From Microcoleus sp. LEGE 07076 (GTDB taxonomy: Bacteria > Cyanobacteriota > Cyanobacteriia > Cyanobacteriales > Microcoleaceae), in NCBI RefSeq assembly GCF_015207455.1, contig NZ_JADEWV010000004.1, positions 1 to 64,000 of the forward strand: a stretch of 64,000 nt of DNA. Direction: 5' to 3'. Each line of letters opens with the position of its first letter. Positions within the stretch are counted from its first letter, which is position 1. Position numbers and translations under genes: made by a program. A model generated the notes under the pieces. It had not been told where the DNA came from. It did not search any database and saw only the letters and a program-made list of their open reading frames with translations. Shown piece by piece: positions 184 through 11,656 of the stretch.

Positions 184-1323
184 ATGATTGGAGAAGTCAG
201 AATCGAAAATTATAAGTCCATTCAAAAGCTGAAGCTAGAATTAGGACGAGTAACTGTATTGATTGGTGAAAATGGCTGCGGCAAGAGTAATATCCTAGAG
301 GCGATCGCCCTTGCTTCTGCGGCGGCAGATGATAAGCTGGATAACGAGTTTTTAGCATCTAGGGGCATCAGAGTTACAGAACCTCAATTTATGCGATCGG
401 CTTTTGAAAAGGAAAATTTAGATAAAGATATCAGCATTGAAATTAGAGGAAATAATGACACAATAAAAATATGGTTTATTTTAAATAACGATAATACACC
501 CTATGCTCGATGGAGAAATCATTTTTACTATGGGATTTCAGAAGAAGAACGGAATTTAGAAAGAGCCTATAGGCCGCTTGCTGCTTGGGAATATAATAGT
601 TTTTTAGACAGCCGAGATCGACAATATCAATTTATCCGCAAAACAAATATCAAAACACTTAAAATACAGGAATTTATCATTTACTCTCCTGAAAATATCG
701 CCTTACGTACTTTTGAAAAAGAAGGGCAAATTCAACCATTAGGGATTAATGGAGAAGGCTTGTTTAAACTTTTAAAATTTTTGAATTCAGACAACCAGGA
801 ACAGCTTAATGAAATTCAAAAAAAGCTGCAACTGATAGATTGGTTTCAAGATTTTGAATCTCCTCCAAATTTATCAAGTATTCAAAACTCACTTCAAATT
901 AAAGATAGATACTTAGATCCAGATTTAGCTTACTTTGACCAAAGAAGTTCTAATGAAGGCTTTTTATTTTTGCTATTTTACTTTGCTTTATTTATTAGCG
1001 AACTCACGCCTAATTTTTTTGCAATTGACAACATTGACGCTTCCCTCAATCCTCGATTATGCCGCCGATTAATCGAAGAATTAGTCGAACTAGCAAAAAA
1101 GAATGATAAACAAGTCATCTTAACAACTCACAACCCGGCAGTTTTGGATGGTTTGGATTTAGATGATGATGAACAGCGGCTGTTTGCAATTTCCCGCAAC
1201 CAATTAGGCTATACTAAAGCTACAGGCATTCTCAAACCTCAACCTTTGGAGGGACAAGAACTTGTGAAATTATCAGAGGCATTTTTGAGAGGTTATATCG
1301 GCGGACTTCCTAAGAATTTTTAA
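184..1323 (+). CDS. AAA-type (RecF/OLD-like) ATPase
   Basis: A 379-residue SMC/RecF-like ATPase. The N-terminal strand IGEVRIENYKSI leads into a Walker A motif, GENGCGKS at residues 28-35. The C-terminal third has a Walker-B-like strand (FFAIDNIDASLNPRL, with an unusual IDN where IDE/DE is expected) and the switch motif TTHNPAVLD. No TOPRIM nuclease domain is seen, so this is an ATPase-only member of the AAA_21-like group often paired with a nuclease gene. The coding sequence is visibly more AT-rich than flanking housekeeping genes, which hints at horizontal acquisition. It is followed within 2 bp by a 21-codon ORF that looks like the start of such a partner gene. A role in phage defence is inference from the family and the adjacent toxin-antitoxin pair. 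Confidence 0.8.
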   Translation: MIGEVRIENYKSIQKLKLELGRVTVLIGENGCGKSNILEAIALASAAADDKLDNEFLASRGIRVTEPQFMRSAFEKENLDKDISIEIRGNNDTIKIWFILNNDNTPYARWRNHFYYGISEEERNLERAYRPLAAWEYNSFLDSRDRQYQFIRKTNIKTLKIQEFIIYSPENIALRTFEKEGQIQPLGINGEGLFKLLKFLNSDNQEQLNEIQKKLQLIDWFQDFESPPNLSSIQNSLQIKDRYLDPDLAYFDQRSSNEGFLFLLFYFALFISELTPNFFAIDNIDASLNPRLCRRLIEELVELAKKNDKQVILTTHNPAVLDGLDLDDDEQRLFAISRNQLGYTKATGILKPQPLEGQELVKLSEAFLRGYIGGLPKNF

Positions 1324-1324
1324 T

Positions 1325-1390
1325 ATGATTAGTTTTGGATTGATTGCAGAGGAACTTGCCAAATTTTTATGTCATATAATAGAAACATAG
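1325..1390 (+). pseudogene. Possible truncated start of the ATPase partner (DUF4276/TOPRIM-like)
   Basis: ATG at 1325 follows the ATPase stop by one base and opens a 21-codon frame, MISFGLIAEELAKFLCHIIE plus T, ending in TAG. The opening MISFGLIAE resembles, from memory, the first residues of small TOPRIM/DUF4276-like proteins encoded directly behind AAA ATPases (pattern GLIxEGxTD). Here the expected Gly-x-Thr-Asp is missing and the frame ends at once, so it would be a remnant left by deletion. It could equally be a chance short ORF. Confidence 0.3.
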
Positions 1391-1405
1391 TTATCGGAGA
1401 TTACC

Positions 1406-3561: not shown

Positions 3562-4380
3562 ATGATTTGGCCATTCAAGCCCCGCTACCGCAAACAAATC
3601 GCCCGCATCGAAGTCACCGGTGCCATTGCCGGAGAAACTCGCAAACGAGTTCTCGAAGCCCTCAAAACTGTTGAAGAACGCAAATTTCCCGCTTTGCTGC
3701 TGCGGATAGACAGCCCTGGGGGGACAGTCGGCGATTCCCAGGAAATTTACAGCGCCCTCAAGCGCTTGCAAGAAAAAATCAAAATAGTCGCCAGTTTCGG
3801 CAATATTTCAGCTTCTGGCGGAGTCTACATCGGCATGGGAGCCCAACATATTGTTTCCAATCCCGGTACAATTACTGGCAGCATCGGGGTGATTATCCGG
3901 GGTAACAATATAGAAGGGCTGCTAGAAAAAGTCGGCGTTTCTTTTGAGGTGATTAAATCCGGGCCGTATAAAGATATCTTGGCATTCGATCGACAATTGA
4001 CCGAACCCGAACAGCAAATTCTGCAAGACTTAATCGACACTACCTACCAGCAATTCGTGGAAACCGTTGCCGAAGCCCGTTCCCTACCGGTTGAAAAAGT
4101 CAAAACTTTTGCCGACGGTCGCATTTTTAGCGGTCAGCAAGCCTTAGAATTGGGTGTGGTCGATCGGCTCGGAACAGAAGAGGACGCTCGCCGCTGGACA
4201 GCCGAACTCGCCGGCCTCGACCCGGAAAAAACCGAATGCTGCACCCTAGAAAAGCCAAAACCTTTCCTAAATCGGGTCTTGGGGAGTAGTCTGGATACAT
4301 CGGGAATTTCAGCTTACAAGAATTTGCTGGAATTTGAGATGTCTACTAGCGGTTTACCGCTGTGGCTGTATCGCCCGTGA
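3562..4380 (+). CDS. sppA: Signal peptide peptidase SppA, short form (S49)
   Basis: A 272-residue S49 serine protease of the short, single-domain type. Such enzymes are thought to degrade signal peptides and membrane-protein fragments at the membrane. Seen here: RIDSPGGTVGDSQEIY around residue 50, the nucleophile region GNISASGGVYIGMG with Ser85, the GTITGSIGV turn, and SGPYKD with Lys137 as the likely general base. The N-terminus IWPFKPRYRKQIARI lacks a clear transmembrane helix. A second, long SppA lies at 33400. The aroH gene follows on the same strand after a tandem-repeat spacer. Confidence 0.9.
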   Translation: MIWPFKPRYRKQIARIEVTGAIAGETRKRVLEALKTVEERKFPALLLRIDSPGGTVGDSQEIYSALKRLQEKIKIVASFGNISASGGVYIGMGAQHIVSNPGTITGSIGVIIRGNNIEGLLEKVGVSFEVIKSGPYKDILAFDRQLTEPEQQILQDLIDTTYQQFVETVAEARSLPVEKVKTFADGRIFSGQQALELGVVDRLGTEEDARRWTAELAGLDPEKTECCTLEKPKPFLNRVLGSSLDTSGISAYKNLLEFEMSTSGLPLWLYRP

Positions 4381-4387
4381 TTTAATA

Positions 4388-4652
4388 GTCAGTTATTTGT
4401 TAGTTGTTATTTGTTATTTGTTATTTGTTATTTGTTATTTGTTATTTTTTGGTTATAATTCCGAATTACCAATTACTACTGACAACTAACAACTAATAAC
4501 TAACGACTAACGAATAACAACTAATGGCAGTGGGGTGTTGGCAGTTATTTGTTATTTGTTATTTTTTGGTTCTAATTCCGAATTACCAATTCCTACTAAC
4601 AACTAACGACTAACAACTAACGACTAACGACTAACAACTAACAACTAACAAA
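4388..4652. repeat. Short tandem repeats of GTTATTT and AACAACTA types
   Basis: Low-complexity heptamer-like repeats fill the gap between sppA and aroH. A GTTATTT run at about 4393-4447 and another at 4543-4565 are each followed by CTAACAA/CTAACGA runs of roughly complementary sequence (4485-4524 and 4596-4652). This makes a large imperfect inverted arrangement. The same type of repeat occurs at 33172-33395, 40409-40905 and 54960-55010. No gene is visible in it. Confidence 0.85.
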
Positions 4653-4655
4653 AAC

Positions 4656-5063: not shown

Positions 5064-5250
5064 ATTTGGCGATGGTGAAAGTCGATCGCCCGGACAATTC
5101 ATAAAGGGCGATCGGCAGATTTCTTTCTCAAGGGGTTGACAAGTTGCAAGTTAAGGTGTATGTTGGTGAGTGTGCGAGTTGCAAAAACCGCTCCAGAATT
5201 TTGAAAATTGCATAGTTTTTTTTGGGATCTGCAGCTAGTTTCAGTGTCGC

Positions 5251-5450
5251 AGAATGTCAATCGACGCACCTCGGGCGATCGGTCAAACCCTGATTTTCTC
5301 GTTGAGGTGCGTCGATGACTCTCATAGCAAGGGTTACGGCTTGCCAGCAACTGAGCTTATTGCTGATTTTACCCTCTTATTGACAACAAAAAAAAGGTGC
5401 GTCGATTTGAGGCTTGAAACCCTTTCTGGGTAAGGCTTCCTGGACGAACA
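5251..5450 (+). promoter_or_regulatory. CRISPR leader with 12-bp inverted repeat
   Basis: AT-rich DNA directly before the first CRISPR repeat, on the side opposite the terminal end. It holds three copies of the 12-mer AGGTGCGTCGAT. The first, at 5260-5271, is inverted. The second, at 5305-5316, forms a perfect 12-bp inverted repeat with it. The third, at 5395-5406, lies 44 bp before the array. A TTGACA at about 5380-5385 could be a -35 box for array transcription. The rest of 5064-5250 holds no gene I can support. Confidence 0.6.
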
Positions 5451-6531
5451 GTCTCCTTTACCACTTCCCCGAGAGGGGATTGAAACACTCTAAATTAGAA
5501 TCCTGCATTACAAACAAAAATGTTGAGTCTCCTTTACCACTTCCCCGAGAGGGGATTGAAACCAGGTGGTGCGCCAGGGGCGTCGCGCCCAGGCACGCTA
5601 TCGTCTCCTTTACCACTTCCCCGAGAGGGGATTGAAACAACAGTATTGCGGTATGGTTCGTCATTCCCGTATTTTGTCTCCTTTACCACTTCCCCGAGAG
5701 GGGATTGAAACAAGAAGGTCCTGACTGTTGGCCAGGATAGGGAACAGTCTCCTTTACCACTTCCCCGAGAGGGGATTGAAACTTCTCTTTTTGAAACTAG
5801 GGAGTGACAGGAGCATCGAATAGGTCTCCTTTACCACTTCCCCGAGAGGGGATTGAAACTCAAGGGAGGTAGTAGTTTTAAAAGCGAGAAACTCAAGGTC
5901 TCCTTTACCACTTCCCCGAGAGGGGATTGAAACAATTTGGGGGTTCATAGCCTTCCTCGTCAATAAAAGTCTCCTTTACCACTTCCCCGAGAGGGGATTG
6001 AAACTTTGGGTTTCTTCTTGCGTTTGACTCATTTTTTCACTCGTCTCCTTTACCACTTCCCCGAGAGGGGATTGAAACCGGTAGAGGTCTGCGGTTTCCT
6101 CCAGAGACATAGGTTCAGTCTCCTTTACCACTTCCCCGAGAGGGGATTGAAACACTTGAGTTGTCAGAACTTGAGTTGTCAGAACTTGACTGTCTCCTTT
6201 ACCACTTCCCCGAGAGGGGATTGAAACACCTACTGCTTCAAGGAATGCGGAAAAAACTGTTAGACCGTCTCCTTTACCACTTCCCCGAGAGGGGATTGAA
6301 ACACTAGAGAGGAATCCATATTTAGAATGGTGGGTGTGCCGTGTCTCCTTTACCACTTCCCCGAGAGGGGATTGAAACTTGCGGAATCCCGATGGGTAAC
6401 ACACAATTGTGTCTGACCCGTCTCCTTTACCACTTCCCCGAGAGGGGATTGAAACCCCACTCCTGTAGCAAACGTTCCAACTTGGTCGTTAGCTGGTCTC
6501 CTTTACCACTTCCCCGAGAGGGGATTGAAAC
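5451..6531 (+). CRISPR. CRISPR array, 15 repeats of 36 bp, 14 spacers
   Basis: Fifteen identical 36-bp repeats begin GTCTCCTTTACC, contain the hairpin CCCCGAGAGGGG, and end GGATTGAAAC. They start at 5451, 5527, 5603, 5676, 5747, 5824, 5898, 5969, 6043, 6118, 6192, 6267, 6343, 6420 and 6496. Spacers are 35-41 bp and all differ. The 3' end ATTGAAAC is the usual 8-nt crRNA 5' handle of type III and I-D systems, which sets the transcribed strand as plus. That subtype reading is inference. No repeat is degenerate at the trailing end. No cas gene occurs in the window, so the array is orphan here or served in trans. All reading frames inside are repeat artefacts. Confidence 0.98.
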
Positions 6532-6626
6532 TTTAATGATTGCCTTTTCGGCATCTGATAGCCAAGACACCAGGCGGTTGAAACCGCTGCTACACAGTCA
6601 AAGTCCGCCTGCGCGGACTAAAGATT

Positions 6627-6942
6627 AACTGGATTTGGTATTATTTCAAAGTCCGCGCAGGCGGACATCGTTTGTGTAGACGCGGTTTCAACCACCTCCT
6701 TCATAAACTGGATTTGGTATTATTTCAAAGTCCGCGCAGGCGGACATCGTTTGTGTAGACGCGGTTTCAACCACCTCCTTCATAAACTGGATTTGGTATT
6801 ATTTCAAAGTCCGCGCAGGCGGACATCGTTTGTGTAGACGCGGTTTCAACCACCTCCTTCATAAACTGGATTTGGTATTATTTCAAAGTCCGCGCAGGCG
6901 GACATCGTTTGTGTAGACGCGGTTTCAACCGCCTCCTTGATA
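6627..6942. repeat. 79-bp tandem repeat, four copies
   Basis: Four near-perfect 79-bp units start at 6627, 6706, 6785 and 6864. Each holds the palindrome GTCCGCGCAGGCGGAC and a CGCGGTTTCAACC box. The last copy differs near its end (GCCTCCTTGA instead of ACCTCCTTCA). The unit is built from two motifs seen dispersed elsewhere: GCGGTTTCAACCGCC (also at 35240-35475 and, inverted, at 57870) and the AGTCCGCGCAN-type box. No coding potential is seen. Confidence 0.9.
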
Positions 6943-10507: not shown

Positions 10508-10597
10508 CTGGGTTTGGGCCATTTTTGCCAAACCAAAGCAATAAAATTAACGGTTAATTAGGTTTGTAGTCAGGACTTTAGTCCTGATTAATTCATT

Positions 10598-11656
10598 TTA
10601 TTTCCTCGGCCGCGGTACGCGAAAACTCAGGGGACTGAGGATTTGATTCAGGGCGCGCAATTGTTCGGCGGTGCCCAAACAAATCAACCTATCTCCTCCT
10701 TCGATCGCCGTTTCTCCAGTTGGCCCGACAATCAAATTGCCCTCACGCTGCCGAATTGCTAACACCAAAGCCCCCGATTGCGATCGCAGTTTTGCATTTC
10801 TCAAAGTTTGTCCGACGTACACGCAACTGTTAGGATCTACCAGAAATTCTTCCATGTAAAAAGAGCGATCGGTTCCTGTCAAAATGCCGTCCACAAAATC
10901 CATAACCTGAGGCCGCAAAGCAGCCGCAGCCATGCGTTTTCCGCCCGTAATGTAGGGGGATACGACAGCATCTGCGCCGCCCCGCTGTAACTTCTTGACG
11001 GCTTCTTCTGTGGTGGCGCGGGCGATCGCCCGTACCTTCGGATTCAGAGTTTTCGCCGACATCACAGTATATAAATTCTCCGCATCCGAGGGCAAAGCTG
11101 CTACTATGCAAATTGCGCGATCGATCCCCACATTCAGCAAAGTTTCATCGAGTGTCGCGTCTCCCTGCACCGCTGTGTATCCCAGCGCCAAAGCAGCCTC
11201 AATCGACTGTACCGCCGAATCTACCACCACAAAAGGGATATTTTCGGCCTCAAATTCCAAGGCAATCTGCCGCCCAGTGCGGCCAAAACCGCAGAGAATG
11301 TAATGCCCCACCAAAGAATCTACCAAACGGTGCTGCTGCCTAATTCTTGCTCCTTCTTGAAAATAGCCTTGGATCAGCGCTTCTGTAAAGCGGTTAACGA
11401 TATAACCAATCACCATGACACCCATTAAAATCAGGCACATGGTAAACATTCGCCCGCGTCTGCCGAGGGGGTGAATTTCGCCGTAGCCGACAGTGGCTAA
11501 GGTAAATACTGTCATGTAAGCCGCATCCAGCAGAGACCATTTTTCGATCTGCCAATACCAGAGAGTACCGGTGCATAAAATTCCGCCCAGGGCGATCGCG
11601 CCGCCCCTTAACTCTTTTTCCAGATGCTGATATTTTTGTTCGAGAATAGAATACAC
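10598..11656 (-). CDS. Potassium channel with RCK (TrkA-N/TrkA-C) domain
   Basis: A 352-residue two-helix K+ channel fused to a regulatory RCK domain, MthK-like in layout. The first transmembrane helix lies near residues 18-35. The pore helix and filter read AYMTVFTLATVGYGEIHP (TVGYGE), and a second helix MCLILMGVMVIGYIV follows. The cytoplasmic part starts GHYILCGFGRTGRQIALEFE with the Rossmann GxGxxG nucleotide site, then VQGDATLDETL. It ends in a TrkA-C-like module (GQTLRNAKLRSQSGALVLAIRQ). RCK channels are gated by nucleotides or divalent cations; the ligand here is unknown. Confidence 0.92.
   Translation of the reverse strand: MYSILEQKYQHLEKELRGGAIALGGILCTGTLWYWQIEKWSLLDAAYMTVFTLATVGYGEIHPLGRRGRMFTMCLILMGVMVIGYIVNRFTEALIQGYFQEGARIRQQHRLVDSLVGHYILCGFGRTGRQIALEFEAENIPFVVVDSAVQSIEAALALGYTAVQGDATLDETLLNVGIDRAICIVAALPSDAENLYTVMSAKTLNPKVRAIARATTEEAVKKLQRGGADAVVSPYITGGKRMAAAALRPQVMDFVDGILTGTDRSFYMEEFLVDPNSCVYVGQTLRNAKLRSQSGALVLAIRQREGNLIVGPTGETAIEGGDRLICLGTAEQLRALNQILSPLSFRVPRPRK

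Follow-up and report, generated by a model that had tools for sequence, protein, structure and literature searches.

In Anabaena sp. PCC 7120, Reimann and colleagues are said to have sorted the orphan arrays, in 2020, according to which of two Cas6 proteins processes them. That organism offers a likeness to the strain described here, being a filamentous cyanobacterium in which several arrays without cas genes depend on Cas proteins coded elsewhere; the Microcoleus case, in contrast, is built on a site shared by three species, a leader family, and overlapping spacers, and not on biochemistry. Adaptation in trans between CRISPR types has been demonstrated by cas1 deletion in Flavobacterium columnare (PMC8092290). 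There, an array without adaptation genes of its own gains spacers through the Cas1 of another type, whereas in Microcoleus we infer adaptation in trans, with no effector or adaptation gene found nearby. Arrays that share a repeat are also reported to be filled irrespective of their distance to cas genes, in work whose analysis as shown left out orphan-array genomes (PMC12814883). In the type I-D leader of Synechocystis 6803, which at about 200 bp resembles our cyanobacterial leader in length, three motifs raise spacer uptake (Kieper et al. 2019, via the review PMC10212523), and one of the three I-D motifs resembles an integrase anchoring site, according to that review. Plasmid pMIC7113.03 (NC_019740) of Allocoleopsis franciscana PCC 7113 carries an array with a homologous leader and a repeat that shares CACTTCCCCG..AGGGGAT.GAAAC with ours. 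Its III-D operon agrees in core gene order with an operon on contig C215 of our genome, seven proteins of which match at 56-82% identity. The Allocoleopsis array adjoins its effector, whereas in Microcoleus the two lie on separate contigs. On the same plasmid (L035:12046-17630), TnsA-like, ATPase, and TniQ genes lie between two short arrays sharing a repeat core, beside the III-D operon, and this stretch could be a transposon associated with a type III array.

The array that we describe lies in a 64-kb window, meaning the whole stretch of Microcoleus sp. LEGE 07076 DNA that was analyzed, which starts at base 1 of contig C71 (71,777 bp) in an assembly of 6.79 Mb, 495 contigs, and 99.6% completeness. 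All copies of the repeat GTCTCCTTTACCACTTCCCCGAGAGGGGATTGAAAC are identical, the last included, and the spacers are unique and 35-41 nt long (mean, 38.6 nt), just as the original prediction had described them. Direct repeats of about 36 nt and unique spacers of similar length are accompanied on one side by a leader that is homologous to the leaders of other arrays (Table 1). The repeat folds into a 5-bp hairpin with a tetraloop (UCCCC-GAGA-GGGGA) and ends in GAAAC, as do the other repeats of this genome that were folded. For this repeat alone, the folding energy was no better than that of shuffles (z -0.8), and the Rfam model CRISPR-DR18 scored 26.9 bits against the repeats, under its cut-off of 50. 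Promoter-like boxes similar to the one listed in Table 1 were seen by eye in two relatives, G012 and G013.

Table 1. Features in and around the array (positions within the window)
Feature	Position	Strand	Remarks
Promoter-like TTGACA-N17-TATGTT	5136..5164	+	Upstream of leader; weak (1 found vs 1.8 expected from shuffles)
Leader	5241..5450	+	90-92% identical over 208 bp to the G012 and G013 leaders
Leader word copy 1, inverted, GGTGCGTCGAT	5260..5270	-	11-mer triplet search
Leader word copy 2, direct, GGTGCGTCGAT	5306..5316	+	11-mer triplet search
Leader word copy 3, direct	5396..5406	+	About 55 bp before first repeat
CRISPR array	5451..6531	+	15 identical 36-nt repeats, 14 spacers
Spacer 2	5563..5602	+	Last 29 nt are the first 29 nt of a C66 spacer (C66:1694-1730)
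Probable truncated-spacer remnant	6532..6563	+	Suggested by the missing terminal degenerate repeat; end coordinate a guess

The claim that no cas gene lies to the left or right of the array held across the 71.8 kb of C71, on which the left flank amounts to 5.4 kb before the contig ends. Whole-genome searches with Cas1, Cas10, Csx10, and Csm4 profiles gave matches on other contigs only, none of them on C71, and 17 Cas-related protein queries (tblastn) matched neither the window nor C71:64001-71777. When 53 C71 proteins were scanned with PADLOC, comprising 48 of the 49 window reading frames (the array-internal one was excluded) and five from the right end of the contig, no Cas family was present among the matches listed (25 of 111 families). 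A cas operon just outside the window, which would have made the locus an ordinary one, was found neither in the remaining 7.8 kb of C71 nor in the DNA surrounding the orthologous arrays (30 kb in G012, 40 kb in G013), where the 17 queries also had no match. In none of the three genomes was a cas gene found linked to the array. Other features of the left flank are an intact AriA/AAA_15-like ATPase gene at window 184-1400 (PADLOC PDC-M31A, AriA), whose follower in G013 (230 aa, L070:5944-6636) seems, by eye, to be reduced in the window to a short start. This seems to be a candidate two-gene defence pair that is broken in the window strain. A PIN-domain gene (PF13470) with a small upstream reading frame forms a toxin-antitoxin-like pair at 1406-2112, and CTAACAACTAAC / GTTATTT microsatellites lie at 4380-4655, between a peptidase gene and the chorismate mutase gene; a similar microsatellite run is found at the start of L103.

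The repeat was found in 3 of the 196 genomes searched (our own included), all of one genus: the window strain, G012, and G013. In both relatives the array occupies the same site as in the window, between the genes for chorismate mutase and a fatty-acid desaturase, with pyruvate kinase beyond. The chorismate mutase site could be located in 28 of the 29 genomes of the genus, and leader and array are present at three of the 28. Fourteen have a short empty site, with the desaturase gene 57-197 bp away and neither leader nor array. The other 11 have no leader or array within the 1.5 kb examined; in 7 of these the desaturase gene is present in part, farther away, and in 4 no portion of it lies within 1.5 kb. 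The arrays of the window strain, G012, and G013 have no spacer in common.

A search of the rest of the genome for cas genes, interpreted with PADLOC models, located III-A, III-B, III-D, and I-D-type genes on other contigs. A III-B system with Cas1 and an array is on C125, I-D-like modules are on C103 and C272 (C18 has a related array together with a fragment of Cas1), and Cas1-Cas2 array modules are on C43 and, with a CARF protein, on C411. Effector operons of type III-A, with Cas6, and of type III-D are on C108 and C215, respectively, and no array was found on either contig. Contig C215 is 13 kb long and its operon extends right up to the end, beyond which there could be an array belonging to that operon. 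A suitable effector, Cas6, and Cas1-Cas2 are thus all coded elsewhere in the genome. Together with homologous leaders near III-D genes in other cyanobacteria, these genes support the original prediction of supply in trans by a type III and/or I-D system.

We consider it likely that the locus is a true CRISPR array with its own leader that functions with no cas genes next to it, being transcribed, processed, loaded onto III-D (or III-A), and filled by a I-D Cas1-Cas2. The array would serve as a small memory bank whose place in the chromosome is the same in at least three species of Microcoleus. Transcription would proceed from the leader on the plus strand, and the repeats would be cut by a Cas6 coded elsewhere to give crRNAs with a predicted 5' AUUGAAAC tag. 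These crRNAs would load a type III complex, for which the III-D operon of C215 is the best candidate and the III-A operon of C108 an alternative or an addition. New spacers would enter at the leader end via a Cas1-Cas2 coded elsewhere, the best candidate being a I-D module of the C272 kind. The data show the array and its leader, their common site in three species with no cas gene detected close by, type III effectors on contigs that yielded no array, the turnover of spacers, and the overlapping captures in two arrays with one type of leader; transcription, processing, and the choice of effector and of integrase are the parts of this scheme that we infer.

The least expected result is that the leader contains an 11-bp word in three copies that varies in concert between leaders. 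GGTGCGTCGAT has three occurrences in the 64-kb window, all within the array leader. Matches to the leader, many of them short, were present in 56 of the 196 genomes, our own included (E 0.01). We searched 26 leaders (25 chosen plus the I-D leader of Synechocystis) for one inverted and two direct 11-mer copies and compared each with 60 mononucleotide shuffles. The triplet score was matched by none of the 60 shuffles in 21 of the 26 leaders and by 1 of 60 in another, and it did not stand out in the leaders of G034, G041, our C411, and our C272 (5, 58, 36, and 2 of 60 shuffles). Across the 22 triplet leaders, the proximal direct copy starts 51-57 bp before the first repeat, a shared layout that is partly due to descent given that most leaders were found by similarity to the window leader. 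The words themselves differ, being for instance GAGCCTCGCA in our III-B leader, GGTTGACGAAA in one of our I-D leaders, AGGTAGGTTAA in G074, and GTGGTGTCGAT in Allocoleopsis. Copies inside one leader tend to change together, and descent gives neither this concert nor the difference between words for free. The within-leader match for any of the three pairings of fixed zones was reached by none of 5,000 permutations across 21 leaders (6 of the 26 were dropped, including G034, G041, and C411, one C43-like leader was added, and related leaders were permuted as independent), while a forward-orientation control was at chance (2,325 of 5,000 permutations).

The I-D leaders share this form in part. The pSYSA I-D leader has a triplet score of 29 of 33, with the proximal copy 56 bp before the repeat. 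In the three I-D leaders the middle zone matches at only 6-7 of 11 positions, the middle copy being elsewhere or not found, and in the C272 leader the first and third zones also agree at 6 of 11. The orphan leader word GGTGCGTCGA is unlike the I-D words GGTTGACGAAA (C103), AGGTTGGCGAA (C272, by eye), and GGTTTGCCAAA (Synechocystis), and the middle copy lies nearer the repeat in Microcoleus than in the two scoring I-D leaders. The motifs of I-D leaders may be one instance of a more general form, the concerted triplet; a literature search that covered few subscription papers found no closer published leader of the triplet kind. We tentatively propose, at somewhat less than even confidence, that the leader carries an address code, a concertedly evolving three-copy word read by an adaptation complex or its partner, with the inverted copy starting 178-200 bp, the middle direct copy 132-166 bp, and the proximal direct copy 51-57 bp before the repeat. 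If this is true, different words would direct different Cas1-Cas2 complexes to different arrays, cas-less ones included, and orphan arrays could be assigned to an integrase from sequence alone.

A second array of the same repeat, which the original prediction had suggested looking for, was absent from the 6.79-Mb assembly at up to 3 mismatches. Among the contigs examined there was instead another orphan array, on C66, whose leader is of the same type as that of the window array; it has 10 repeats, one of them a variant, of CTTTCCGAAACCACTTCCCCGCAAGGGGACGGAAAC and no match to any of the 17 Cas queries in its surroundings. Its counterpart in G022 is an orphan array amid the same neighboring genes. 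In that G022 array (L104:11295-12716), spacers 3 and 15 are the same and spacer 16 contains the opening 24 nt of spacer 4, which suggests an internal duplication. Spacer 2 of the window array and the C66 spacer share 29 nt exactly, with an 11-nt offset and in the same orientation relative to the repeats, and a 29-mer of window spacer 2, searched against our own genome at up to 3 mismatches, matched only the array itself. The 29-nt overlap is the sole one of at least 16 nt between arrays among the 253 spacers of the eight arrays of this genome that were examined, and the C71-C66 combination makes up 126 of the 25,298 cross-array spacer pairs (0.5%). The two spacers are separate captures from one source, and such captures in both arrays of one leader type suggest that one machinery fills both.

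That the spacers are unmatched within the window was borne out (E 0.01, the array itself excepted), and in the other DNA examined at the same threshold the one C66 spacer was the only match. A search of phage and plasmid DNA, recommended by the original prediction, gave no nameable target: the array had no match among phage records and one weak match among plasmid records, 49 bp at 84% to a Borrelia plasmid (E 0.008), which involves AT-rich spacer 8 and part of the repeat and was taken as chance. Plasmid and phage matches to a 48-nt spacer-2 region were weak and were set aside (cover, 56-73%; E 0.07-0.9; best 10 of 43 plasmid records). The IMG/VR viral contigs contained no credible protospacer for the exact 20-mers queried, one from each of 8 of the 14 spacers. 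The contig matching spacer 2 was rejected; its identity is limited to the queried 20 nt, and it is GC-rich and proteobacterial-phage-like by eye.

For the integrase, we searched for Cas1 in eight leader-positive genomes (our own, G001, G008, G010, G012, G013, G017, and G022). A C272-related Cas1 is present in all eight, at 62-98% identity in the other seven, and is the only Cas1 match in G010, G012, G013, and G017. The single matches in G012 and G013 are 80-81% identical to the C272 Cas1 and are linked to C272-like Cas4 and Cas6; the Cas1 of this module is thus found in every carrier of the array (our own genome, G000, and G012 and G013). Cas3d, Cas4d, and Cas6d mark the C272 module as I-D, while the Cas1 of C272 scores best with a Cas1c model. 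The presence of Cas1 alone is weak evidence, given that 26 of the 29 genomes of the genus have some Cas1; a sole Cas1 in carriers with fully different spacers is better evidence, although another Cas1 could have been lost from them after the last insertion.

The alternative that survives best takes up this last point: another Cas1-Cas2, for instance with a Cas1 like that of G020, G033, and G051, would have adapted the array and since been lost, acquisition having stopped in some carriers. A leader of the same family stands directly after cas1-cas2 in G033, G051, and G020, the word GGTGCGTCG scored in the G051 and G020 leaders, and the G020/G033/G051 Cas1 clade has no members from the window genome, G012, or G013 in a Cas1 tree of eight genomes plus three leader-linked loci. 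The spacers of G012 and G013, however, are wholly different although each genome has only the C272-like Cas1, an argument that is not strong given that later loss is possible. On balance we find this alternative unlikely, if still the most serious of those considered, and a C272-like Cas1-Cas2 remains our preferred supplier. Two modules of our own genome were also set aside. The cas1-cas2 of C43 is an unlikely supplier because a deletion there seems to have joined cas2 to the array and removed the leader, while G022 (L151) and G008 (L148) retain cas2, leader, and array; at L027:45-1203 (C43), cas2 is apparently cut short and fused to the first repeat with no leader between. The repeat of the C411 module is similar, but no word triplet emerged from the leader there. 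Between a CARF-TM gene and the C411 array lie tandem units of about 74 nt with GGTGCGTCGC and its inverse, followed by a 63-aa fragment resembling Cas1 (L031:9829-10478 and 10519-10707).

The effector is less easily assigned. Arrays of the leader family lie near III-D genes on the Allocoleopsis plasmid (0.5 kb) and at two G074 loci (about 0.5 and 7 kb), which gives three III-D-linked leader loci (L035, L108, and L113). These homologous leaders make III-D, acting in trans, the best candidate for the partner, albeit an uncertain one. In G012 the III-D operon has no array in the 20 kb examined, and on one contig of G008 a distance of about 20 kb separates an orphan array from the III-D operon, which looks like a locus that has come apart. 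Leaders of the family are not exclusive to III-D, being found also beside III-B-like cas1-cas2 or Cmr genes (L036, L097-L099), and most leaders are silent on the partner given that 8 of 12 leader stretches examined had no match to any of the 17 queries. Nor does every carrier have a III-D effector: G013 has a Csm4 match and none to Csx10, whereas G012 has a Csx10 match and none to Csm4, and this split keeps the assignment from being clean. Within the genus, leader-positive and leader-negative genomes did not differ significantly in Csx10 (8 of 14 vs 5 of 15; p 0.27) and differed in Csm4 (5 of 14 vs 0 of 15; p 0.017), in tests that ignore phylogeny and count partial matches as leaders. These co-occurrence statistics were weak or contradictory.

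We considered, second, that the III-A operon of C108, with its own Cas6, and not III-D could be the main user of the array. This would fit the III-A operon of G013, the carrier lacking a Csx10 match, in which Cas6 (L188:6187-6948) and its C108 counterpart are 91% identical, compared with 55% for Csm4 and 61% for Cas10 of these operons, and it would fit the restriction of Csm4 to leader-positive genomes of the genus. G012, however, carries the array without a Csm4 match, and no leader locus examined adjoins a match to our Csm4, whereas three lie near III-D genes. We judge III-A as the main user to be rather improbable, roughly one chance among several, and keep III-D as the preferred partner.

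Whether the array is active bears on a third alternative. Uniform repeats had been read in the original prediction as a sign of recent activity, an argument that, as put there, does not carry far. The G012 and G013 arrays end in a degenerate distal repeat (..GGGGATTGATAT) that is absent from the window array, which seems therefore to have lost its oldest end; identity of the repeats, including the last, thus owes as much to the missing distal end as to a young age. Directly downstream, at window 6540-6940, lie MITE-like tandem 79-bp units with the inverted repeat GTCCGCGCAGGCGGAC, in which a related hairpin (6597-6620) matches Rfam CRISPR-DR28 just under the cut-off. Better signs of activity are the complete turnover of spacers relative to two relatives and the overlapping captures in two arrays.

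The array could still be a dying relic of a type III locus that has lost its once-linked cas genes, persisting unused and no longer acquiring spacers. Such decay would account for the lack of cas genes beside it, its shortness (15 repeats), the apparent deletion of its distal end, and its retention at only 3 of the 28 loci. The first repeat of G012 has one substitution, otherwise found only in its degenerate last repeat, which suggests no recent insertion in that array. In comparisons of the window with G012 and G013, the leader is 85-96% identical in stretches and the DNA farther upstream 79-82%, whereas between G012 and G013 the leader (91-100%) is not more conserved than the upstream DNA (95-98%). 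A decaying array, however, should gather repeat mutations, and all 15 repeats are identical; it should keep old shared spacers, and these have been wholly replaced among the three carriers; and one capture overlaps with that in C66. We regard a relic as improbable, more so than a different integrase or effector. That the locus is a chance or tandem DNA repeat and not a CRISPR array can be dismissed with near certainty, in view of the exact 36-nt repeats, the unique spacers of uniform length, the GAAAC end, and a leader homologous to those of cas-linked arrays.

In summary, the cas-less array of Microcoleus is probably used in trans, and as such it is an ordinary kind of thing seen in a clear form: the array and its control region are shared with two relatives and the likely partner proteins are coded elsewhere, which makes the locus a good illustration of an arrangement already known. 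The finding points to a CRISPR system whose parts are scattered, arrays and effectors lying apart, and which is nevertheless kept at one site in several species. The concerted leader word may provide a testable rule with which to pair stray arrays with the proteins that fill them.
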